Assembly (NCBI GenBank): GCA_019637955.1
Contig: JAHBUS010000006.1
Span: forward strand, 1 to 34,749
Source: Pseudobdellovibrionaceae bacterium
GTDB lineage: Bacteria > Bdellovibrionota > Bdellovibrionia > Bdellovibrionales > Bdellovibrionaceae
DNA: 34,749 nt
Direction: 5' to 3'
Positions 9,323 through 34,749 of the stretch are shown one piece after another. A program made the translations under genes and the position numbers. Position 1 is the stretch's first letter. Every line of letters starts with the position of its first letter. The notes under the pieces were generated by a model. That model made no database searches and was not told where the DNA came from. It saw only the letters and a program-made list of their open reading frames with translations.

Positions 9323-10276
9323 TCAACGCGCGCCCGGGACCGGGCGCCGCGAAAGATTGGCAGGCCCCGTGCCCCGCACGTCATCGTCGTTGGGGGTTTG
9401 GCCATTCGCGAGCGTCTCGATCAGGTGCTGGCGGCCCGTCAGGTGCACCCCAAACGTGTACGGACTCTCTGCTTTTTTACAGCGCTCGATCCCCGACACT
9501 TCGGCGCGGTTCACGGTGCTCGCACGGTGAACGCCGCGCAGGCACGCCTTGGAGCCATCGTAATGAATGATGCCGCCCCCCGAATCGCCGCCGCAAGGAC
9601 GGTTGACGTTGTCGGGCCTCGCCGAGAGCGTCCGGCCGTTATTGTCGACGGTGTAACCCAAATCCAAATACCGCAAGGGACTGTTGTCGCCCGAAGGATC
9701 TTCGTTCGAGATGCCCGAGCCCACCATCACGGTCCGGCCATTTTCGTAGTTGCCGCCCGGATCGCAAACCGGAATGGGCCGCACGGCTCCCGCCGGGCGC
9801 GAAAGCACGCCCACGGCCACATCGCACGAGTTGTCGTAGCTCGGAACGTCGCGGCCGCAAGCCGTGGTCACCCTCGAAAGGGGAATTGTTGTTTTCTGGC
9901 CCGTGCGCGGGTCGGTGATTTCAACCAAGTACTCGCCCGCCTCATCGCCCGTCAGGCGCTGCTTGTCGAAGCAGTGACCCGAGGTCACCACGCGTGAAGT
10001 GGAGGTCAAGGTACCGCTGCAAACAAATTCGGGAGCGGCACTCATGCCGCCGACTTTGCGCGCCTGAAGAATGCGAACCGAGGCGCTGCGGAGAAGATTG
10101 TCGAGTTGGCGGTCGCGTCCCGGGCCCGGCTGAACGGGCTGCCCGCCGAGAACCACGGGGTGCGCAAGATTCGGCGTCGAGCTGCGAATCGCGCTCGCCC
10201 CCGCCGTGGCTCCGGGCAGCGCCATCACCCGCGTCGCCGCCAGCAGTCCGATCAGGAAAATCGTCGTTCGAATCAT
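9323..10276 (-). CDS. Secreted trypsin-like serine protease, downstream paralogue
   Basis: A 317-aa exported S1-family protease. A signal peptide (about 19 residues) is followed by a low-complexity linker and the protease domain. The triad is visible as His in TSGHCFD (about 100), Asp in SCDVAVGV (about 151) and Ser in GGDSGGG (about 232). The motif reads GDSGGG rather than the usual GDSGGP. Paired cysteines suggest disulfides formed outside the cytoplasm. Its ATG overlaps the stop of the upstream paralogue by four bases, so the two are translated together. The two proteins align along their length, including the SNED, TLSA and CLRGVH stretches, and share a short Arg-rich C-terminal tail, which points to a tandem duplication. 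The substrate is unknown. Confidence 0.92.
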   Translation of the reverse strand: MIRTTIFLIGLLAATRVMALPGATAGASAIRSSTPNLAHPVVLGGQPVQPGPGRDRQLDNLLRSASVRILQARKVGGMSAAPEFVCSGTLTSTSRVVTSGHCFDKQRLTGDEAGEYLVEITDPRTGQKTTIPLSRVTTACGRDVPSYDNSCDVAVGVLSRPAGAVRPIPVCDPGGNYENGRTVMVGSGISNEDPSGDNSPLRYLDLGYTVDNNGRTLSARPDNVNRPCGGDSGGGIIHYDGSKACLRGVHRASTVNRAEVSGIERCKKAESPYTFGVHLTGRQHLIETLANGQTPNDDDVRGTGPANLSRRPVPGAR

Positions 10277-11220
10277 CGAGCCCCCGCCGAAGTGCGAGGG
10301 GTGTTTGCCTGGGGAACCACCCGTCCCGTTTCTTCATCGCTCGGGGTCTCACCCGAGGCGAGTTTGGACACGAGGTGGGCGCGTCCCGCCAGATTCACCG
10401 CGTACGTCACGGGGTTCTTGGCTTGACGGCAAGATTCCGCCGCGCTTAAGCCCGGCCGGTCGTTGACTTGACTTCCGCTATGAACGCCGCGAAGGCAGGC
10501 ACGCCCCTTCTCGATGTACAAGACGCCGCCGCCCGAGTCTCCCGAGCAGGGCCGCTGCGTCCCGCTCACCGGCGCAGAGAGCGTCCGCGGGTTTCCCAGG
10601 GTTTCTCGGTACTCGAGTTCCAAAAATTTGAGAGGGCTGTTCTGCGCGGACTCGTCTTCGTTCGAGAGGCCCGATCCCACAATGAACGAACGCCCCTTCG
10701 TGAAATCGATTCTTTCGCAGACGGCCACCGCGCGGCCCTCGGGCACCGACTTGGTGAGTGTCGCCACCGCGACATCGCAAGTGTTTGCCGCGAATTCCAA
10801 GGCAGGAGGACAGGCGCCCGTCACGCTCGCGAACGGAATCAAAGTGATCTTGCCGGTTTGCGGGTCGACGACTTCGGCAAGGTACTTGGCGGCCCCCGCT
10901 CCCGATATCTTTTGCTCATCAAAGCAGTGCGCGGCGGTGACGAGCTGGTTGGCCTTGGCCAGGGTCGCGCTGCAAGCGAACGACGTGCGGCCCGTGACGG
11001 GGTTTTTCATCAAAATGCGAACCGAGGCGCCGCGAATCAAACGTTCGATGTTTTGATCGCCTCCGGGCTTGGCCTCGGCGCCGCCGATCACGTTCACAGC
11101 GCCGTCAAAACCGGGAGTCCCGGTGGCCGGCAGGGTCACCGCCACGAGCGCGAGCAGGCCCAAGAAGAAAAACACCTTGCGAACCGTGCGTTTGAATTTT
11201 GTCTTAAAATGGGACGGCAC
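10273..11220 (-). CDS. Secreted trypsin-like serine protease, upstream paralogue
   Basis: A 315-aa exported S1-family protease and first gene of a two-gene operon. A basic N-terminus (FKTKFKRTVRK) and hydrophobic stretch form a signal peptide or signal anchor. His in TAAHCFD (about 98), Asp in TCDVAVAT (about 149) and Ser in SGDSGGG (about 228) make the triad. Like its neighbour it has Gly where most trypsins have Pro after GDSGG. The start is a GTG, supported by a strong Shine-Dalgarno GGGGGAG seven bases upstream. It is divergent from the nuclease gene, sharing a 127-bp promoter region. The pair differ clearly, so the duplication is not recent. Confidence 0.92.
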   Translation of the reverse strand: MPSHFKTKFKRTVRKVFFFLGLLALVAVTLPATGTPGFDGAVNVIGGAEAKPGGDQNIERLIRGASVRILMKNPVTGRTSFACSATLAKANQLVTAAHCFDEQKISGAGAAKYLAEVVDPQTGKITLIPFASVTGACPPALEFAANTCDVAVATLTKSVPEGRAVAVCERIDFTKGRSFIVGSGLSNEDESAQNSPLKFLELEYRETLGNPRTLSAPVSGTQRPCSGDSGGGVLYIEKGRACLRGVHSGSQVNDRPGLSAAESCRQAKNPVTYAVNLAGRAHLVSKLASGETPSDEETGRVVPQANTPRTSAGAR

Positions 11221-12014: not shown

Positions 12015-13199
12015 CTATTGGGTGAGGAGAACGCGTGAGCACTGAGGTTTTTGCGAGCGCCCGAACAAGCGCCGGATCACGCTAAAATCGAGGCTCTCAC
12101 GGCGTGGACCGCCATTGCGGTAGCTGGCATCGTCGCCGCCCCCGCCGCCAAACCAAACAAAGTCGACGCCGCGGTTGTAACGCCCGTGATTTTGCCACTC
12201 GCCATCGCGGGCCTGCCCGGAAGCATCGAGATACAAGGTGTACTTGATATTCACTTGCTTGGCGATCTCACCCGCAGCCACGCGCTCGCGCGTTTCCAAG
12301 TTGCTCTCGACGATATCGATTTCTCCGAGAGTTTCGAGGTATCCCTTCACGGTCACTTTTGATTTTGCCCAGGGACGGCCGCGGCGCTCCTCCGGCGTCA
12401 ACTCTTCGGGAGCCGACACCTCGCGTTTGTAGCCGATCACGCTCTCATTCCAAATTTCGCTTCCCAGATGCGAGTCGATGACGAACGCCTTGCGCTTTTC
12501 ACCGACGAAGAAACGTAAAATCAAGTCGAAGGCGGCGGCGTTGGGCTGGCTTTCGTGACGGCCCTCACGGCTCGGAGCTCCCATCTGCGCGTACTTCTCG
12601 ACGTAAAAATAGGAGGCGCCACTGAGCGCCTTTAAGTCGGCGGGCTCGAACAAAATGCGAATGCCGTCAGGGTTCGTCATCACCACCGGGTATTTGGGCT
12701 CGCGCAAGTTGATCCCCGCGCAGCGCACGCCATTGCAAAAACCTTCCCAACTTTCGGGTTTCATGTCGCGGCGGGGGCCTCGGTTTTGGAGTTCGTACTT
12801 GGTCGCCGGAAAATCATAACGGCCGCGCAAGAGGTCGTATTTTTCGACGGGCGAGAGTTGGGCGATCAGGCTGGGGGACATGTTTTGAAAATGCTCGCGG
12901 GTGTCGCCGACTTTATCGCCACTCCGAATTTGTGTCGACGGCGTTTGCCAACGGTGCGCGATCCCGCCATCGGCCATGGGAAAGTAGTTTCCGGCCCAAG
13001 GGGCGCGATCGGGACCCAAGCGGTACTCTTGGCGGCCGCGCGTGGGATCCTGGAACTTTTCCAGGTCGCGGTCCGAGAAGCGCGAGAACTGCAGGGCGTA
13101 GCGCAGACTCTTCAGATCGGTTTCAAAATCCCCGGCGGCCGAAAGGGCCGGCAAGAAAAGACAAATGGCCGCGAAGAAAAGTCTGCTTTGAATTCCCAT
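12015..13199 (-). CDS. Secreted protein resembling the transglutaminase-elicitor (GP42-type) family
   Basis: A 394-aa exported protein. A signal peptide (MGIQSRLFFAAICLFLPALSAAG) leads a single long domain. Features that recall the TGase_elicitor family are APWAGNYFPMADGGIAHRW near the start, then WEGFCNGVRCAGI with a candidate catalytic Cys (about residue 153) and a downstream EP. Further on, VIDSHLGSEIWNESVIGY offers a candidate Asp and His (about residue 240). Members are secreted cross-linking enzymes first known from Phytophthora. The assignment is by motif memory, not a search. I start at the ATG at 13199 because the signal peptide begins there. A GTG at 13304 would add 35 residues and block signal-peptide function. 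It is divergent from the next secreted protein. Confidence 0.6.
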   Translation of the reverse strand: MGIQSRLFFAAICLFLPALSAAGDFETDLKSLRYALQFSRFSDRDLEKFQDPTRGRQEYRLGPDRAPWAGNYFPMADGGIAHRWQTPSTQIRSGDKVGDTREHFQNMSPSLIAQLSPVEKYDLLRGRYDFPATKYELQNRGPRRDMKPESWEGFCNGVRCAGINLREPKYPVVMTNPDGIRILFEPADLKALSGASYFYVEKYAQMGAPSREGRHESQPNAAAFDLILRFFVGEKRKAFVIDSHLGSEIWNESVIGYKREVSAPEELTPEERRGRPWAKSKVTVKGYLETLGEIDIVESNLETRERVAAGEIAKQVNIKYTLYLDASGQARDGEWQNHGRYNRGVDFVWFGGGGGDDASYRNGGPRRESLDFSVIRRLFGRSQKPQCSRVLLTQ

Positions 13200-13407
13200 A
13201 GAAAGAGGTCTTTCCAATTTCGGGGCCGCCGGTCCCGCCGCCGGAAACATCACACTGTTGGAAAACCCGGCTCTGATCCGGGAGGTGACGCTCGTGTTTG
13301 GCACCCGTCAAAAACTTCGACGGCCGAAATGGTCCTGGGCGGCGGCGGTCCGGGTGCGAATCTTGATGGAGGCCTCTCGTCCACGGCATTCACCTTGGGA
13401 GGATGAA

Positions 13408-14712
13408 ATGCAATTCCGCTCGGCGCTCGTCGCCTTCGGCCTGCTTTTGACGGCCGCTTTGCCAACTCATGCCTTGAGCGAAGCGGCTCGAAAGCTCGTG
13501 GAGTTTGAAACTCAATCCAATGCCGTTTCCAAGCGTTCGAAGGACGCGATCTTGATCGAACATTTCGAGATCCCGCTCGACCGCGTCGAAATGCTCTGGT
13601 CGGTGTTCTCCGACCGCGAGGCCGCCCAATCGCTGACTTTTAATAAGAACGGCAAACCGCACGTGCGCTGGTTGATCAATCCCGAGGATACGAAGTGGCA
13701 TCTGGAGGTCGCGAAACATTTGGCGGCCCAGGGTCTGGACACCACGCGCTACCAATACTACCGCGCTTACCAAAGCGCTTCGCGCAGCTACCTGATCGAA
13801 GACCCCGTGACCGGTCACGAATTTTTCGCCAAGGTTTCGACCGACAAGACCGGCGGGAACTGGCGCGATAAACGCCAAGAGTGGAAAGACGCGGCCGACG
13901 TTCACAATTCGGCCGTTCACGTTCAGCAGGCCATCGCGCGCTACCGTCCCCGTCATTTCAAATATCTCGACGAGTCTCTCGTTTTCGGATTGAAGGAGAT
14001 CGATCAAGGCATGGTCGTGCGCTCGCTCGAAGGGCTTGGCAAGAGCGGACACTATTACCTCCCCGGTTTTTCGGCGCTTCATGACCGGACGGGCCGCATG
14101 ATCGCTTTGAAAAACGGAGCCGTCAGCCCCGCGAAGTTTTGGGAAACCCACTACGTTCGACCGCTGGCGCGCGCGCTGGCCGAATTTTTCGTGATGACCG
14201 GCCTCGCCTACGATTCGCCGCACTCTCAGAATTTCTTGGTCGAACTCGACCCCGAACTTCGTCCCACGGGCAAAATCATTCTGCGCGACACGGGCGACGT
14301 TTACGTGACGAAACCCTACACCGAAGCCATGGGTTCAAAATTCGCGGAGATTTTTCCGAAAGAGCAATCCAAGTCCAACATTCCCGCCTCGGTCGGCCTG
14401 CTCCATGGCAATACCAAACCGCGCTGGGTGAGCGAAAACACCTATAACAAGTGGGGCTCGAGCTTTTTCGATGAGTACCAAAAGACCTTGGCCCGCCTGA
14501 CCGGCATTCCGCAGGCGACGCTGATCAAGCACTCGGCTCTTTACGGAACCGTGATCGACGCCAACCTGAACGTCGGCCGAAGCGGCGACTACATCGGGCA
14601 GAATCTCAACATTCGATCCGAGAAGTGGAGCGCCTTTCTCCACCGCCTGACGCAGGATCAGGGCTTTCGCCGTCCCGTCATTCTTTTGTGCCGCGAATTG
14701 ATGATGTATTAA
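13408..14712 (+). CDS. Secreted protein of unknown function with kinase-like motifs
   Basis: A 434-aa exported protein whose signal peptide (MQFRSALVAFGLLLTAALPTHA) starts at an ATG with GGGAGGA just upstream. I cannot name the family. In the mature part, FFAKVST (about residue 140) could be a nucleotide-binding Lys strand. Around residue 271, SPHSQNFLVELD followed about 15 residues later by ILRDTGD is arranged like the HxxN...DxG catalytic loop of kinase-fold enzymes, and also like the EAHxQN...RD region of IucA/IucC siderophore synthetases. A secreted or periplasmic enzyme of that fold would be unusual. It is divergent from the transglutaminase-like gene and ends with its stop overlapping the amidotransferase stop (TTAA). 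Confidence 0.7.
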   Translation: MQFRSALVAFGLLLTAALPTHALSEAARKLVEFETQSNAVSKRSKDAILIEHFEIPLDRVEMLWSVFSDREAAQSLTFNKNGKPHVRWLINPEDTKWHLEVAKHLAAQGLDTTRYQYYRAYQSASRSYLIEDPVTGHEFFAKVSTDKTGGNWRDKRQEWKDAADVHNSAVHVQQAIARYRPRHFKYLDESLVFGLKEIDQGMVVRSLEGLGKSGHYYLPGFSALHDRTGRMIALKNGAVSPAKFWETHYVRPLARALAEFFVMTGLAYDSPHSQNFLVELDPELRPTGKIILRDTGDVYVTKPYTEAMGSKFAEIFPKEQSKSNIPASVGLLHGNTKPRWVSENTYNKWGSSFFDEYQKTLARLTGIPQATLIKHSALYGTVIDANLNVGRSGDYIGQNLNIRSEKWSAFLHRLTQDQGFRRPVILLCRELMMY

Positions 14713-27327: not shown

Positions 27328-28815
27328 ATGGCGAAGTCCAAAACGAAAACAATCTACACTTGTCAAAAGTGCGCCGCACAACGCCCCCGCTGGGAAGGTA
27401 AATGCACGGATTGTGGCGCCTGGAACTCCTTCGTCGAGGAGCTCGTGACCAGCGAGCCCAAGGGCGGGTCCACGCGCGGCTGGGCGCTTGGGGCTTCGGC
27501 ACCGACGACCTCTGCCAACGCGCAAGGAAGCGTCCGCCTCGACCAGTCGATTCAAGAGCTTCAATTCGAGCGCCGTGATACCGGCATCGGCGAACTCAAC
27601 CGCGTTTTGGGGGGCGGGCTGGTCCGGGGTTCTTTCGTCCTGCTGGGCGGCGCCCCCGGCATCGGCAAAAGCACGTTGCTGCTGCAAATGGCCGGTGGCC
27701 TGGCCAAAGAAGGTTCGAATCTGCTCTACATTTCGGGCGAAGAAAGCGTGGCGCAAACGGGTTCGCGCGCCCAGCGCCTGGGCATTCGCGAAGCCCGCGT
27801 CGAGCTGCTGGCCGAAAGCAATCTGCAAGTCGTTTTGGATTTTGCGCGCAAGAAACGGCCCGATGTTTTGATCGTCGATTCGATTCAGTCGATTTTTTTG
27901 CCGGAACTTGAGGCCGCGCCCGGCTCGGTCTCGCAGGTGCGCGAATGCGCGGGCCATCTGATGGGCCTCGCGAAAAACGAAGGTATCAGCGTCGTGTTGA
28001 TCGGCCACGTCACCAAAGAGGGAAACCTCGCCGGCCCCAAAGTTCTCGAACACATGGTCGACTGCGTGCTGTCTTTTGAAGGCGATCTGTCGCACCATTT
28101 CCGCCTGCTCCGCTCGCTGAAAAATCGCTTCGGAGCCACCTTTGAGCTCGGCGTCTTTCAAATGAACGCCGAGGGTCTCGAAGAGGTCGCCAATCCGTCG
28201 GAGCTTTTTCTCGAGCAGCGCGGAGAGAACCTGATCGGCTCGGCGGTCTTCGCTTCGGTCGAAGGCAGCCGCCCTTTGCTCTGCGAAATTCAAGCTCTGA
28301 CCAGTCCCTCCCCGATGGCCATGCCCCGGCGAAACGCGCTCGGGCTGGAGGTGGGACGCCTGCACATGCTGACCGCCGTCTTAGACCGCCACCTGGGCTT
28401 GTCGCTTTCTCATTCGGATCTTTACATCAACGTGGTGGGCGGCCTGAGGCTTGAAGAGCCTTCGGTCGACCTTGCGGTGGCGGCGGCAATTCTGTCCACC
28501 GAGACCGAGCAACCTCTGGATGCCAAGACCGTCTTTTTCGGCGAGCTGGGCCTGACCGGAGAAGTCCGCGCGGTCACCTTTGTCGAACAGCGCCTGCGCG
28601 AAGCCGACAAACTCGGATTTACGCAGTTTGTCCTGCCCGCGAGCAACCGCAAGCATCTGAAAGACTTTGACTTGGGACCCGGAAAGACGATGCACTGGAT
28701 GAAACACGTTCAGGATTTGGGCCGGTTCCTCGGAGCCGGCAAACCGAAACGGCCGACGACGGCCCGCCCGGCTCCTCAAAAATCGAACGAGCGCAGCCAC
28801 CGAGGTGAAATGTGA
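27328..28815 (+). CDS. radA: DNA repair protein RadA (Sms)
   Basis: A 495-aa ATP-dependent DNA repair and branch-migration protein. The N-terminal C4 zinc finger has Cys at 12, 15, 26 and 29 (CQKC and CTDC). Walker A is GGAPGIGKST (about 109), the RadA-specific KNRFG motif is at about 263, and a Lon-protease-like domain forms the C-terminus without an obvious peptidase dyad. The tail is basic and disordered. ATG at 27328 is chosen for AAGG seven bases upstream and the family-typical MAKSKTKT start; an open frame from 27280 has an unlike N-terminus. Its TGA overlaps the GTG of the next gene. Confidence 0.96.
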   Translation: MAKSKTKTIYTCQKCAAQRPRWEGKCTDCGAWNSFVEELVTSEPKGGSTRGWALGASAPTTSANAQGSVRLDQSIQELQFERRDTGIGELNRVLGGGLVRGSFVLLGGAPGIGKSTLLLQMAGGLAKEGSNLLYISGEESVAQTGSRAQRLGIREARVELLAESNLQVVLDFARKKRPDVLIVDSIQSIFLPELEAAPGSVSQVRECAGHLMGLAKNEGISVVLIGHVTKEGNLAGPKVLEHMVDCVLSFEGDLSHHFRLLRSLKNRFGATFELGVFQMNAEGLEEVANPSELFLEQRGENLIGSAVFASVEGSRPLLCEIQALTSPSPMAMPRRNALGLEVGRLHMLTAVLDRHLGLSLSHSDLYINVVGGLRLEEPSVDLAVAAAILSTETEQPLDAKTVFFGELGLTGEVRAVTFVEQRLREADKLGFTQFVLPASNRKHLKDFDLGPGKTMHWMKHVQDLGRFLGAGKPKRPTTARPAPQKSNERSHRGEM

Positions 28816-29207
28816 TTGCAACAACCGCTGAGATTACCCGCGAAGTCTATAAACCTGGCGATTTCATTTTCTTCGAGGGCGATCTCGACTTTCATTTCTA
28901 CATCATCGAATTCGGCGAAGTTCAGATCTTCACTAAAAATGCGCAAGGCACGCGCATCAATATCGCCACCATCGAACCCGGCGAATCTTTCGGCGAGTTC
29001 GCGCTTCTCGACAAGGCTCCCCGCTCCGCTTCGGCGCAGGCCTTGACCGAGGTCAGCTTGTTCAAGGTGTCGCAAGTGGGATTCGAAGATCTGCTGAACG
29101 AACTTCCGGTTTGGTCGAGCAGCATGCTGCGCAACTTCGCGGTCCGCCTCAAGAACATGAATCAAGTTCTGAAGACGGTCCCGCAATTCGTCAAAAAAGG
29201 TCAGTAA
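28812..29207 (+). CDS. Single-domain cyclic-nucleotide-binding protein
   Basis: A 131-aa cytoplasmic protein that is a lone cNMP-binding (CRP-like) beta-barrel without a DNA-binding domain. It has the conserved phosphate-binding cassette PGESFGEFALLDKAPRSAS, with the Glu and Arg that bind cyclic nucleotide in family members. It starts with GTG overlapping the radA stop by four bases, with GAGGTG upstream, so it is co-translated with RadA. A link between a cyclic-nucleotide sensor and DNA repair is suggested only by position. Its last seven bases overlap the end of the convergent 823-aa gene. Confidence 0.9.
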   Translation: MIATTAEITREVYKPGDFIFFEGDLDFHFYIIEFGEVQIFTKNAQGTRINIATIEPGESFGEFALLDKAPRSASAQALTEVSLFKVSQVGFEDLLNELPVWSSSMLRNFAVRLKNMNQVLKTVPQFVKKGQ

Positions 29208-31672
29208 GTTTCGACTTCGGCGATGTAGGCGCGCGAGAGCGCCTCGAGTTCGTCTTTCATGGCCTCATTTTTCTGGATGAGTTTCAACAGTTCGCGGCCG
29301 TTTTCAAGACGGCGCTGCTTTTGTCCCATCCAATTGCAGAGGTAAAGACCCCATTCTTTTTGAAAGGCCCAAAGATCAAAGGGCGATTTGTCCAAATCCA
29401 CCGCGTTTGCGCGGCGCGGACGCATCCAAAAATCTTGGCCCGCGGCCGACACCACTTGAAAGTCCGACGACATCTTCTCGCCGTAAACCATGCGGATCTC
29501 GTCGATACGCCCGGCGGCGTCCAGCTGATCTTGGTAAAACTCCACTGCCGGCTTGGTCATCTTTTTAAACTCGATCACCTGATCGAGTTTTCCATTCACC
29601 TCAACCAAAACCCAATAGCGTTCAAGGCCCATACTGCTGCCGCTGTCGTTCACGCGCAAGGCGTAGTCGACGGCTTTCCAGCCCTTGGATTGAAAGATCC
29701 CGGCGCTCTGAGCGAGAACCGCTTGAAGTTCGGACTTTTGCGCCGCGGTCATTTTCGAGACCGGCTTCGACTCGAGGCGCTCGTGGTTGAATTTACCGTT
29801 CGTCGTATTTTTTTCGATGTACTTGAGGCGCGCCTCTTTCATTTCGGTCTTGGTCGTGGCCAGCGCCTCTTGAACGTCCTCGGGAATCTCGTGCGCTTTG
29901 CCTTGAAGGCCTTCGACGTACGCCTCGAACATGGGGCGGTATTTAAAGTCGAGATCCGCCACTTTAAAGATGGTCATCATGCGCACGAAATCCAAAATCA
30001 ACGGGGCGCGCCCGCCATCATCAACGTCGGCCACCATCAACTGGCGCCGGCCGCTTTCGGTTTCGCCATCGAGGATGTTTTTTAAATGAGGATCGCCGAT
30101 CACGACGCCTTCAACCAGCGTCTGTTTGTCGACATGGTCGGTGGCGTTCTCTTTCATCCAGGCCCAGTAGTGCGACACGTTGCTCGAGAGAAGCTTACGG
30201 GGGTTGCGCCCCGTGCTGCGCCAAAGACGGCGGATGCTCGCCTCCGAGGCCGGACCGCGAGCGGAGGTGATCTCGCAGGGCGTGGCCGAGCGGTCTTGGC
30301 GGAGGCGCTTCTGCACATCGAGATCAAATCTCAGCTGGCCCGAATCGCATTTTGTTTTGAGCACGTCGTAAGCGCGCTGCAAGTTGCCCATGAAGCTGAT
30401 CCGCGAGCCCTTAAAGTCCGCGTTCGTATAAAGAAGGTCTTTGGTGAAGTACTCCTGCGCCTGAGCCTCATTGCTCTTCACGGCCTGAGCGAAACGCATG
30501 AAGCGGGAGTAGGTCTCGTAGCTCATGTGCCGGACGTTCTCGATGCCGTCCACGCTGCGCATGTTGTTCGAACGCATGTTCACGTTCACGCCGCAGTCGT
30601 TGTCTTTCAAAACCATCTCTTTGACCAAAAAGGCTTGCTTGCCCTTGGCGGCGGCGAGCTCGGACTCAGGAACAACCGCCTGCACGATTCCGACATTGTA
30701 GTTCTGGCGGGATTGATTCTGACGCGTGACTTTTTGGGCCTCGGACTTCTCGGTTTTGAGAACGCCGTTCTCGAGCCAATACCAACGGAACTTATAGTGG
30801 ATGTTGCCGATGCGATCGTCCTGCGACATGAGAGTGTCGAGCAGGACCATGTCCGAAACGTCCTTCATTTGCACCATCATCGGAACGACGACGGACAGCT
30901 GATTGGAGCCCGCGAGTTGCTCAAGACTTTGCGGGCTGGTGACTCGCAAGTAAGGAGCTTGCTGCACGAAACGCTGGTAGCGGGTGTCGTAACCGCCGAC
31001 GCCGCTGACCTCGGTGTAGATGAATTCGTTTTTCACGTTGTCGGTCAAGAAACCGTAAAGCATGCCGTCCCGGGTGAAGAGCGTCGACGGTCGCTCTTGA
31101 TGGGCCTCGAGAATTTTATTCCAAGACCGGCCGATCATCTCGCCCGCCGGAATCAAATCCAAGGCCCGCTCGGCGATACGCTGGTGCTCGCGCGGGTCCA
31201 TCGTGCGCAGCACGGTCACGGGAATGCGGCCCACGCCGCCCAAGATGCGCGACACGTGGTAGGTCGCGATGCCCGAAGGCGTGTACGAGCAGGTGATGCT
31301 CTGTTTGAATTTGGCTTCGACCTTGCGGAGCTTCGAGTCTTCGGTGCAATGACCTTGCATGATCTCGGCGCGGGTTTTTCCTTCGGGGATTTTGCAGATC
31401 AAGGTGCCCGGATTGGTGGAATTGAGTTTCGGGCAGAGAGCGACGTTCGCATAAAAATCATAGCCGCAGAGTTGAGATTCTTTTTTCAAGTCATCGGCCG
31501 AGAAAATCGAGGCGTCGGCGAAGCCGCCCACCCACTTGCGCGGCGACCAGCAGGTCTCACGCGCGCCCGAGGGCGACTGAAAACCCTTGGATTGAGCGGG
31601 AAGAAAGCCCGCAGTTTGCGCCTGGACCGACAGGGCGGAGAGCGAAATCAGGGACAAAATCCAGCGCTTCAT
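29201..31672 (-). CDS. Large secreted protein with DUF2252/APH-like kinase motif
   Basis: An 823-aa exported protein with a signal peptide of about 18 residues (VQA cleavage) and an N-terminal Cys-containing region of unknown kind. Around residues 523-556, VIGDPHLKNIL followed by ADVDDGGRAPLILDFVRM matches the layout of DUF2252 and aminoglycoside-phosphotransferase-type catalytic loops (GDxHxxN ... DxDD). This predicts a kinase fold acting outside the cytoplasm. The rest is largely helical with no recognised domain. GAGGTG six bases before the ATG supports the start. A GC-rich hairpin lies directly upstream of that site. The function is not known. Confidence 0.72.
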   Translation of the reverse strand: MKRWILSLISLSALSVQAQTAGFLPAQSKGFQSPSGARETCWSPRKWVGGFADASIFSADDLKKESQLCGYDFYANVALCPKLNSTNPGTLICKIPEGKTRAEIMQGHCTEDSKLRKVEAKFKQSITCSYTPSGIATYHVSRILGGVGRIPVTVLRTMDPREHQRIAERALDLIPAGEMIGRSWNKILEAHQERPSTLFTRDGMLYGFLTDNVKNEFIYTEVSGVGGYDTRYQRFVQQAPYLRVTSPQSLEQLAGSNQLSVVVPMMVQMKDVSDMVLLDTLMSQDDRIGNIHYKFRWYWLENGVLKTEKSEAQKVTRQNQSRQNYNVGIVQAVVPESELAAAKGKQAFLVKEMVLKDNDCGVNVNMRSNNMRSVDGIENVRHMSYETYSRFMRFAQAVKSNEAQAQEYFTKDLLYTNADFKGSRISFMGNLQRAYDVLKTKCDSGQLRFDLDVQKRLRQDRSATPCEITSARGPASEASIRRLWRSTGRNPRKLLSSNVSHYWAWMKENATDHVDKQTLVEGVVIGDPHLKNILDGETESGRRQLMVADVDDGGRAPLILDFVRMMTIFKVADLDFKYRPMFEAYVEGLQGKAHEIPEDVQEALATTKTEMKEARLKYIEKNTTNGKFNHERLESKPVSKMTAAQKSELQAVLAQSAGIFQSKGWKAVDYALRVNDSGSSMGLERYWVLVEVNGKLDQVIEFKKMTKPAVEFYQDQLDAAGRIDEIRMVYGEKMSSDFQVVSAAGQDFWMRPRRANAVDLDKSPFDLWAFQKEWGLYLCNWMGQKQRRLENGRELLKLIQKNEAMKDELEALSRAYIAEVETY

Positions 31673-31811: not shown

Positions 31812-33299
31812 TTAAAAGGAACGGCGAACGGCCGCCTGCCAATGCTCCAAGCGCTGCTTTCGCGCTTTGGCCGTCATGTCGGGCGCGAAGCTTTGGTCCT
31901 TCTGCCAAACTTTCTTGATGTCTTCGAGCGACTTCCAGAAACCAACGCCAAGACCCGCCAAATACGCAGCTCCCATTGAGGTCGTCTCGATCGAGCGCGG
32001 ACGCACGACCGTGGTCCCCATGTAGTCGGCCTGCATCTGCATCAAAAGATTGTTGGCCGAAGCGCCGCCATCGACCTTGAGGCTCTTGAGTTTTTTGCCC
32101 AGGTCTTTTTGCATCGCGATCAGAATCTCGCAGTTCTGCAGCGCCATCGCTTCGAGCGTGGCGCGCGCGATGTGCGCCCGGCCCGTCCCGCGCGTGAGGC
32201 CCGTGATCACCCCGCGCGCCTCCGGTTTCCAGTAGGGAGCCCCGAGCCCGGTCAAAGCCGGCACGAATTCAACGCCATCGGCGGTCGCCACTTCGCGCGC
32301 GAGCGCTTCGATCTCCCCGCTTCCCTTGATGATGCCGAGACCATCACGCAGCCACTGCACGGCCGCCCCGCAAACGAAGGCCCCGCCTTCCAGGGCGTAC
32401 TGAGTTTTTTGTTTGGGAAGGCGCCAAGCGACCGTCGTCAAAAGACCGCTCTTCGACGCCACGATTTTGGCGCCGGTGTTCATCAGCAAGAAACTGCCGG
32501 TGCCATAAGTGCATTTGGATTCGCCCGCCTGCCAGCACGTCTGTCCAAAAAGCGCGGACTGCTGATCGCCCGCGACGCCCGCGATCGGGATGCCATCCGG
32601 CAGAACGCCGAGGCCTTTGGTGAACCCCAAAATGCCGCTCGAATCGGTGATCGTCGGCAGCATCTCGCGCGGAACTCCCAGAATTTTGAGAAGCTGGGGG
32701 TCCCAATCCGTCGACGCCAAATCCATGAGCAGCGTGCGCGAGGCGTTGCTGACATCGGTGACGTGCGATTCGCCCTTCGAGAGGCGCCAAATCAGAAAAG
32801 AATCGATCGTCCCCGCCCGCAAGTCGCCGCGGCCTAAAATTTCGCGGCACGAAGGCACGTTTTTCAGGATCCAGTGGATCTTCGTCCCCGAAAAATAGGG
32901 ATCGAGAACGAGGCCGGTCTTTTTCTTAAAGAGGCGCTCGTGACCCGCTTTCTTCAGTTTGGCGCAAATGTCGTGGGTTCGGCGGCATTGCCAGACGACC
33001 GCGTTCATCACCGGACGGTGATTGCGGGCATCCCAAACGACCACGGTCTCGCGCTGATTCGTGATTCCGATGCCGGCGACTTGGCGACCTTGCACCTGCG
33101 CCTTCATCAAAACTTGGGGGATCAGCTTGGCCACCGTGCCCCAAATGTCTTCGGGATCGTGTTCCACCCAGCCGGGTTTGGGAAAAATTTGCTTGAAATC
33201 CTCGTCGGCGGACGCCACCAGACTTCCGGTGAGGTCCATCAAACTCACGGTTGTTCCCGTTGTTCCTTGATCGATCGCCATGATATATCTGGAATGCAT
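31812..33299 (-). CDS. glpK: Glycerol kinase
   Basis: A 495-aa cytosolic enzyme that phosphorylates glycerol to sn-glycerol 3-phosphate. Visible motifs are MAIDQGTTGTT (phosphate 1), PGWVEHDPEDIW, GITNQRET, AVVWQCRRT, GVAGDQQSALFGQ and the C-terminal VDGGASANN. Length is normal for the family. The start at 33299 is supported by AAGGGGG six bases upstream. There is no glpF or glpD beside it. It is divergent, with 23 bp between starts, from a PlsC-type acyltransferase, and its product is the substrate at the head of phospholipid synthesis. Confidence 0.97.
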   Translation of the reverse strand: MHSRYIMAIDQGTTGTTVSLMDLTGSLVASADEDFKQIFPKPGWVEHDPEDIWGTVAKLIPQVLMKAQVQGRQVAGIGITNQRETVVVWDARNHRPVMNAVVWQCRRTHDICAKLKKAGHERLFKKKTGLVLDPYFSGTKIHWILKNVPSCREILGRGDLRAGTIDSFLIWRLSKGESHVTDVSNASRTLLMDLASTDWDPQLLKILGVPREMLPTITDSSGILGFTKGLGVLPDGIPIAGVAGDQQSALFGQTCWQAGESKCTYGTGSFLLMNTGAKIVASKSGLLTTVAWRLPKQKTQYALEGGAFVCGAAVQWLRDGLGIIKGSGEIEALAREVATADGVEFVPALTGLGAPYWKPEARGVITGLTRGTGRAHIARATLEAMALQNCEILIAMQKDLGKKLKSLKVDGGASANNLLMQMQADYMGTTVVRPRSIETTSMGAAYLAGLGVGFWKSLEDIKKVWQKDQSFAPDMTAKARKQRLEHWQAAVRRSF

Positions 33300-34099: not shown

Positions 34100-34749
34100 T
34101 TAGCGATACGTCTGCATCATTTCAAAAGCTTGTTGATGGATCCAAGAGCGGTAATGCGAAACGCTGATGTACGTCGCCTGGCTCACGCAAAGATCGTTGC
34201 TGTTGGGATTGTAAACGGTGGACGCGACTCCCATAACGATGAAGCCGTCGGCGTTTTCAACGAGCATGGGACCGCCCGAATCGCCCACGCACACGCCGGT
34301 GCCTTTTGATTGATCGAGAACCAGAATCTCGGGACGGTCGGTTTCAAGTCGCGGGACGATCGCGTTTTTCAGCGTGCGCTCGCCGGTGGCGACGCGGGTT
34401 TTTGAATCGAAGGTCGTCATCCCGAAGCCGATCGCGTAAACGGTGGGAATTTGCGACACCGAAAAGAAGGACGCCGCCAGCTGCGCGTGGCGGACGTGCG
34501 GGGGAGCCGCGGATTCCAATTTCAAGACCGCGAGATCGTACACGTTCGTGAACACGCGGTCGTCTTCGGCTTTCTGGTAACCCTGATGAACCCGCGCGCT
34601 GACCACGCGGCGCTTGAGACTTGCCGAAACGGCGTCGGTGTTCTCGAGAGACGTCGCGAAAATCACGCGCATCGTATTGAGCTTTTTAGAAACGCAGTGA
34701 GCGGCGGTCAGAACCATTTGGGGACCGATCATCGACCCGGTGCAGATTT
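34100..34749 (-). CDS. Trypsin-like serine protease (partial, 5' end outside the window)
   Basis: The C-terminal 216 or so residues of an S1-family protease. The reading frame is open to the window edge, with CTGSMIGPQMVLTAAHC giving the catalytic His, so the Met at 34732 is internal, not the start. Asp is in VYDLAVLKL and Ser in CVGDSGGPML, the usual GDSGGP form. It therefore differs from the tandem pair at 9323-11220. The N-terminus, including any signal peptide, lies beyond base 34749. It ends three bases from the convergent acyltransferase gene. Confidence 0.93.
   Translation of the reverse strand, partial: ICTGSMIGPQMVLTAAHCVSKKLNTMRVIFATSLENTDAVSASLKRRVVSARVHQGYQKAEDDRVFTNVYDLAVLKLESAAPPHVRHAQLAASFFSVSQIPTVYAIGFGMTTFDSKTRVATGERTLKNAIVPRLETDRPEILVLDQSKGTGVCVGDSGGPMLVENADGFIVMGVASTVYNPNSNDLCVSQATYISVSHYRSWIHQQAFEMMQTYR

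Follow-up and report, generated by a model that had tools for sequence, protein, structure and literature searches.

A putative exported enzyme with fused Fam20-fold and DUF2252-type kinase-like modules in a Pseudobdellovibrionaceae bacterium

Results

Two kinase-like modules share one export signal

The window analyzed in this study is the whole stretch of 34,749 nucleotides at positions 1 to 34,749 of contig JAHBUS010000006.1 (assembly GCA_019637955.1) from a Pseudobdellovibrionaceae bacterium. Our subject is a minus-strand open reading frame (ORF) at 29201..31672, which encodes 823 amino acids (aa) from its ATG and occurs as a single copy in the genome. The encoded protein carries two different kinase-like modules, fused in one exported chain. 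Residues 1-19 (31616..31672; all coordinates of features of this protein refer to the minus strand) form a signal peptide, residues 20-466 (30275..31615) an N-module with the predicted fold of the Fam20 kinases, residues 467-475 (30248..30274) a junction, and residues 476-823 (29204..30247) a C-module with a DUF2252 kinase-like domain.

The signal peptide was recognized from the sequence and, as a hydrophobic segment, by script, and the predicted local distance difference test (pLDDT) values of the structural model are low in this region. With MKRWILSLISLSALSVQA-Q, the N-terminus is that of a typical signal peptide. The initial annotation of this DNA had described an 823-aa ORF bearing a signal peptide together with the motifs GDPHLKN, DVDDGG and LDFVRM, and all of these are present. 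The start, which could have been misread, is upheld because the separate relatives of the protein begin in the same way; in addition, a Shine-Dalgarno-like GAGGTG precedes the ATG. The kinase-like loop does reside in an exported protein, as had been proposed, and it is confined to the C-terminal half. On the N-terminal half, which is the second kinase-like domain, the annotation was silent, and both the fusion and the Fam20 fold were missed.

Upstream of the ORF, on the same strand, lies an FGGY gene of the glycerol kinase-like type (31812-33299), while on its other side an ORF at 28812-29207 is convergent with it. NCBIfam, PADLOC and PHROGs gave nothing useful for the 823-aa protein. A viral or defence origin was considered and rejected, as PHROGs, PADLOC and BFVD yielded no convincing match and scans of viral_contigs with the C-module revealed no relatives.

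The modules are encoded apart in relatives

A search with the whole protein gave matches in 49/66 genomes from its family and in 69/140 from its order. The relatives matched either residues 1-470 or residues 470-820, and the modules were mostly found as separate exported proteins of about 450-540 aa (N) and 360-460 aa (C). Five of the order's genomes encode N and C as separate neighbors on one strand, N first, and their matched stretches are 16-108 bases apart. Three genomes belonging to a single genus had the order C-X-N, X being a third exported protein, and one genome had N and C in divergent orientation on either side of a phosphoesterase gene. At two loci, L017 and L090, an in-frame TAA alone separates N from C. 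The latter (L090:7842-10346, plus strand) belongs to Bradyrhizobium erythrophlei; here N ends in TAA, and C, in which no signal peptide is visible, continues in frame.

Altogether, C was located within 6 kb of N at 10 of 58 N places, the window included. This count used 58 of 65 N rows, seven being second pieces of the same genes, and 55 of 59 C rows, with four left out, of which one was a second piece and three were weak or partial. By genome the two modules co-occurred loosely (both in 23, N in 44 and C in 49 of the 140; Fisher 0.0045); since the genomes are not independent, this and all further co-occurrence p-values serve as a guide only. Beyond the window, none of the order's 140 genomes showed a single open frame holding both modules. 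At the junction of the window protein, the alignment, the separate relatives and the junction sequence itself agree that the C-module's own signal peptide is missing. The window protein joins two modules that its relatives encode apart, and their presence in one chain suggests that both work in one compartment. The notion that N and C are copies of each other found no support (hhalign probability 0.3 percent). The two modules were folded apart, because MAFFT set C-only rows on the N-half of the full-length alignment.

The N-module adopts a predicted Fam20 fold

The AlphaFold (AF2) model of the N-module, built from 30 rows comprising the window and named loci, reached a pLDDT of 89.1 and a predicted template modeling score (pTM) of 0.89. 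When this model was compared with the PDB by Foldseek, the single match at E<=0.001 was the zebrafish Fam20C protein DrFam20C1 (5yh0; E 4.3e-5, probability 1.00). VIA-align placed 5yh0 at Z 18.4 with a root-mean-square deviation of 4.1 over 293 aligned residues, and its top seven rows were all Fam20 (Z 16.3-18.4), followed by PI4KII (16.2), CtkA (11.5), HipT (11.2), HipA (9.6) and PI4KIII beta (8.2).

Conservation in the N-module was assessed in a script alignment of 42 rows; this overlaps with alignment A1 (38 rows), the two sets not being identical. Eleven residues are invariant in 42/42 rows: W184, D279, Q284, D286, R287, N290, D357, N358, D359, H382 and D450. K121 (40/42) and K123 (41/42) lie in a K121-F-K123 strand of the model (31304..31312) and are candidate ATP-binding lysines. 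The segment from D279 to DRIGN290 (30803..30838), which holds five of the invariant residues with the D-x6-DR spacing of Fam20, represents the candidate catalytic loop, and D357-N-D-C-G361 (30590..30604) a candidate DFG-like metal-binding loop. Judged from this pattern, the N-module appears to keep a full set of candidate catalytic residues. For Fam20C, PMC5413348 describes K271 as binding the phosphates of ATP and D478 as the DFG Asp; residues matching these two can be inferred in the N-module.

The comparison with Fam20 (Fam20A, Fam20B and Fam20C; 5yh0, 5yh3, 5xom and 4kqb) extends to the whole-domain fold, export, the conserved cysteines and the D-x6-DR, DN and TYxR motifs. The PDB Fam20 sequences read DFLMGNMDRHHYE...IIHLDNGRGFG...CCRIRKSTYLRL, and the N-module counterpart reads DTLMSQDDRIGN...LKDNDCGV...NVRHMSYETYSRF. 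Comparing the places of the catalytic loop and the metal Asp by eye, we found the D-x6-DR spacing to be equal and DN and TYxR to recur, a correspondence that hhalign did not support. In contrast to Fam20, the N-module is bacterial, lacks a sequence-profile link, shares 12-15% identity, has N290 after DR where Fam20 has HHYE, and carries DND instead of DNG. Eight cysteines are conserved in the N-module (34-41 of 42 rows), as would be expected in an oxidizing compartment; for Fam20, four disulphides are mentioned in PMC5865150. A crude hydrophobic-segment score was positive in 58/70 N rows, which overlap between two sources, versus 319/631 other neighboring ORFs. None of 38 N-module members had a convincing Pfam match.

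Animals are well known to have extracytoplasmic kinases, with Fam20 as the example, and the bacterial ones known are mainly those of spore coats (CotH). CotH resembles the N-module as a bacterial atypical kinase that PMC7821199 and PMC12189002 relate distantly to Fam20C; it is described as being without a DFG-like metal motif, whereas the N-module keeps the invariant DND. CotH was not among the VIA-align rows listed for the N-module, which excludes nothing. According to PMC9758233, four Legionella families cluster with FAM20/CotH. In the titles and abstracts of the top-ranked literature matches, which did not extend to subscription journals and preprints, no exported bacterial Fam20-fold family outside CotH was described.

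Among the relatives, a Methylococcales metagenome-assembled genome (MAG) carries two N copies in tandem behind a protein tyrosine phosphatase (PTP)-like gene (L086:1434-4269, plus strand), one of which is without both lysines in the alignment; by analogy, this arrangement recalls the Fam20A/Fam20C pseudokinase-kinase pair. Another N relative has a bacterial SH3 domain (SH3_3) at its C-terminal side (L103:7725-9785, plus strand).

The C-module is a DUF2252-type domain

Pfam DUF2252 (PF10009) matched the window protein with E 1.3e-8 and 34.7 bits against a cut-off of 22.3. The initial assignment of a DUF2252/APH-like loop is upheld; for APH (PF01636), no Pfam match to the window protein was found at E<=1. 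Over 29 C-module rows at E<=1, DUF2252 was matched in 28/29 and APH in 6/29. In an alignment of 30 rows, D527, H529, D549, D551, Y585, G588, G678, R685 and G783 are invariant. The catalytic loop GDPHLKN (526-532; 30077..30097) also includes N532, present in 29/30, and is followed by the DFG-like metal loop DVDDGG (549-554; 30011..30028). The Gly/Ser-rich loop GSSMG (678-682; 29627..29641), a strand-loop-strand in the model, comes after the catalytic loop, as does E701-F-K703 (29564..29572), in which K703 (29/30 rows; E701 28/30) is the candidate beta3 lysine. Both sequence and alignment therefore place the catalytic and metal motifs (GDxHxxN, D-x-DD) before the Gly/Ser loop and the candidate Lys, an order that, partly on the basis of PMC9758233, we take to define DUF2252.

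The C-module model, built from seven rows, had a pLDDT of 72.6 and a pTM of 0.73. Its residues 182-299 aligned with kinase N-lobes (Z range 5.4-6.1; macrolide phosphotransferase 6.1, CDC7 5.9), and GDPHLKN lies at residues 70-76 of the model, ahead of this N-lobe-like part. The structural listing held only kinase N-lobe pieces and unrelated folds and excludes nothing. Flipped lobes are attributed to DUF2252 in PMC9758233. Our model evidence is weak but agrees with a DUF2252-type kinase-like domain whose lobes come in swapped order. The C-module shares with DUF2252 a score above the gathering cut-off and the same motifs in the same order; it differs in being exported, apparently like most of the 29 relatives by the crude score, and in being linked or fused to a Fam20-fold domain. 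One C relative carries a porin domain at its C-terminal side (L056:2620-4815, plus strand).

Exported phosphatase-like families accompany the N-module

When 819 ORFs around 70 loci and the window were clustered, the top cluster after N and C was an exported PTP-like family of 200-300 aa, found at 15 loci, 14 of them distinct, since L066 and L081 carry identical proteins. These loci include L092 of Bradyrhizobium and L086 of the Methylococcales MAG. A calcineurin-like phosphoesterase was present at six loci. The partner alignment A8, which comprised 13 of the 15 PTP-like proteins, showed an invariant H196-C197-W198-x-G200-x-H202 followed by Ser/Ala (13/13 rows). The best PDB match was PTPMT1 (E 0.0025), and the sensible Pfam matches were all to PTP families and weak (Tc-R-P 4e-4, DSPc 0.0013, Y_phosphatase2 in 5/13). 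The family resembles PTP/DSP phosphatases in its HC-x-x-G loop, an upstream YRGG segment and the PTPMT1 match, and departs from them at the Arg of the Cx5R signature, where it has Ala or Ser in all 13 rows.

The PTP-like family was found in 33/140 order genomes, 32 of which also carry N (Fisher 1.6e-20). All 14 genera with PTP carriers are among the 17 genera with N (genus-level Fisher 1.1e-11), and the association also holds within two genera (p 0.002 and 0.03). In the order, the PTP-like gene lay within 2 kb of N at 21/41 places and the calcineurin-like phosphoesterase at 12/14. A phylum-wide draw of 290 genomes gave N in 26/32 PTP genomes, and outside the order the phosphoesterase was present in six of nine N genomes. 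The window's own genome has one PTP-like gene, which is unlinked (L108:5702-6493); its product of 263 aa has a lipobox and the motif HCWNGWHASG, and it had no match in Pfam. The phosphoesterase profile found no match at E<=1e-15 in this genome. In G003, G006, G009, G010, G011, G014 and G023, a second, diverged N-like gene (554-583 aa) adjoins the calcineurin-like gene.

Distribution and cell-wall neighbors

The family also occurs in Bradyrhizobium, Thiotrichaceae, Methylococcales and Ca. Electronema; each carrier genome holds one or a few members. Two MAG loci from the same genus show the gene order murD - C - X - N - ftsW - murG, assigned by Pfam in L084 (333-8450, plus strand) and by sequence similarity in L069, and murJ adjoins N in L049. 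Pfam had no match for the three X proteins tested, that of L069 among them. Taken with the SH3 and porin domains of individual relatives, the mur/ftsW loci and the murJ neighbor suggest a place in the periplasm or envelope. In several lineages N adjoins a gene for an exported protein that has a hydrophobic segment in its center, at L066:3780-4805 (+), L071:3241-4770 (-) and L069:3576-4763 (+).

In the window's genome, DUF2252, the N family and the C family each occur once. The set of extracytoplasmic kinase-like enzymes envisaged initially, to which a 434-aa protein of the window (13408-14712, plus strand) was counted, found no support in this genome. The 434-aa protein has a signal-peptide-like start and the motif SPHSQNFL..RDTGD; it had no Pfam match and showed no relation to either the N or the C profile (E 0.13 and 0.075 in a one-sequence database, at negative scores).

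Elsewhere in the window, a transglutaminase-elicitor domain protein is encoded at 12015-13304 (minus strand; PF16683, E 5.7e-13). Three trypsin-family genes lie at 9323-10276, 10273-11220 and 34100-34732, all on the minus strand; two of them overlap in tandem.

Discussion

By a modest preference, we regard the window protein as an exported cell-envelope enzyme, in which a Fam20-fold and a DUF2252-type phosphotransferase form a tandem pair behind one signal peptide. The N-module would most likely transfer phosphate to an envelope protein or to a glycan or lipid outside the cytoplasm. Where the C-module is present, it may perform a second phosphotransfer step, whose target would be either that substrate or the product. 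The PTP-like lipoprotein or the calcineurin-like phosphoesterase, both exported, could then read or reverse the phosphate mark.

Several observations weigh against this interpretation, the main difficulty being the supply of ATP outside the cytoplasm. The Pfam Fam20C model gave no row at E<=1 in 38/38 N-module members, and hmmsearch against the PDB, with the whole N alignment and with its C-lobe, found no Fam20 chain. Neither did hhalign link N to a 64-column Fam20 fragment; given the shortness of this fragment and the roughly 40 additional residues that separate the two motifs in the window protein relative to Fam20, the failure neither supports nor excludes homology. Since the profile methods do not support the link, we file the N-module, on its model, under the Fam20 fold and not as a member of the Fam20 family. 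PI4KII, at Z 16.2, nearly attains the Fam20 level, so that the substrate could equally be a lipid, a glycan or a protein. At a pTM of 0.73 the C-module model is of medium quality, and Foldseek against the PDB gave it no whole-chain match at E<=0.001. As to the partners, the PTP-like family keeps the Cys of Cx5R with the Arg replaced in every row, and is perhaps not a phosphatase at all; only 2/8 PTP genomes outside the order contained N; 7/44 N genomes of the order are without either phosphatase family; and no phosphatase-like neighbor of either family is found at the window locus.

Conceivably, the modules are small-molecule, glycan or lipid kinases of the envelope and not protein kinases, with N working like PI4KII or the xylose kinase Fam20B and C like a small-molecule kinase of the APH type, a possible reading to which we give the best chance among the alternatives. 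PI4KII rows follow directly under Fam20 at Z 15-16, and the hydra Fam20, a glycosaminoglycan xylosylkinase, aligns with the N-module at Z 18.2. The APH matches in six of 29 C-module rows, the position of C-X-N between murD and ftsW-murG, the murJ gene beside N, and the SH3_3 and porin domains on an N and a C relative, respectively, are in agreement with such chemistry. The PTP-like partner has its best PDB match in PTPMT1, a lipid phosphatase. However, the cell-wall synteny is limited to one genus and one further locus, and the fold alone does not settle the substrate.

The preferred reading can also be extended to a self-contained extracytoplasmic phosphorylation system, which we consider rather doubtful. 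In such a system, the Fam20-fold kinase and its lobe-swapped DUF2252 partner kinase would be served by dedicated exported phosphatases, the Arg-less PTP-like lipoprotein would read or remove the mark, and the target would lie in the envelope, possibly in the cell wall or a glycan; the window protein would represent two enzymes in one chain.

We judge it unlikely that the kinase-like domains have taken up a different activity, such as AMPylation, glutamylation or ligand binding, or have become scaffolds. Judging by the titles of the reports, bacterial precedents exist in a pseudokinase that AMPylates and a Legionella pseudokinase that polyglutamylates; the idea would also suit the expected absence of ATP from the extracytoplasmic space and the L086 copy without both lysines. 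On the other hand, the Asp, Asn and Lys candidates are near-invariant over 42 N and 30 C rows, and the exported phosphatase-like neighbors suit phosphate chemistry.

The initial annotation had proposed a secreted effector class. Action of the protein on prey would be in line with its signal peptide and with the fact that most named carrier genomes are Bdellovibrionota, many of them predators. We nevertheless consider this improbable and do not retain the proposal: because the family is low in copy number, reaches beyond Bdellovibrionota and lies beside exported phosphatase-like or cell-wall genes, conserved partners and not a varied arsenal, it resembles a conserved function of the envelope more than an injected effector. 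Least probable is an artifact of assembly, in which a lost stop or a frameshift would have joined two neighboring genes. The uniqueness of the fused frame in the order and the lone TAA at L017 and L090 would favor this, but a single lost stop would not explain the absence of the C-module signal peptide at the junction.

Regarded as an envelope phosphotransferase pair, the window protein would add to the Gram-negative bacteria a Pfam-blank exported Fam20-fold family that is genomically tied to exported phosphatase-like partners. The fusion naturally hints at cooperation between the two enzymes, and DUF2252, which only three papers of the literature searched name, gains a partner and a cellular place. 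If this reading is true, one could test directly whether the Gram-negative envelope is reversibly phosphorylated and where the ATP for this comes from.

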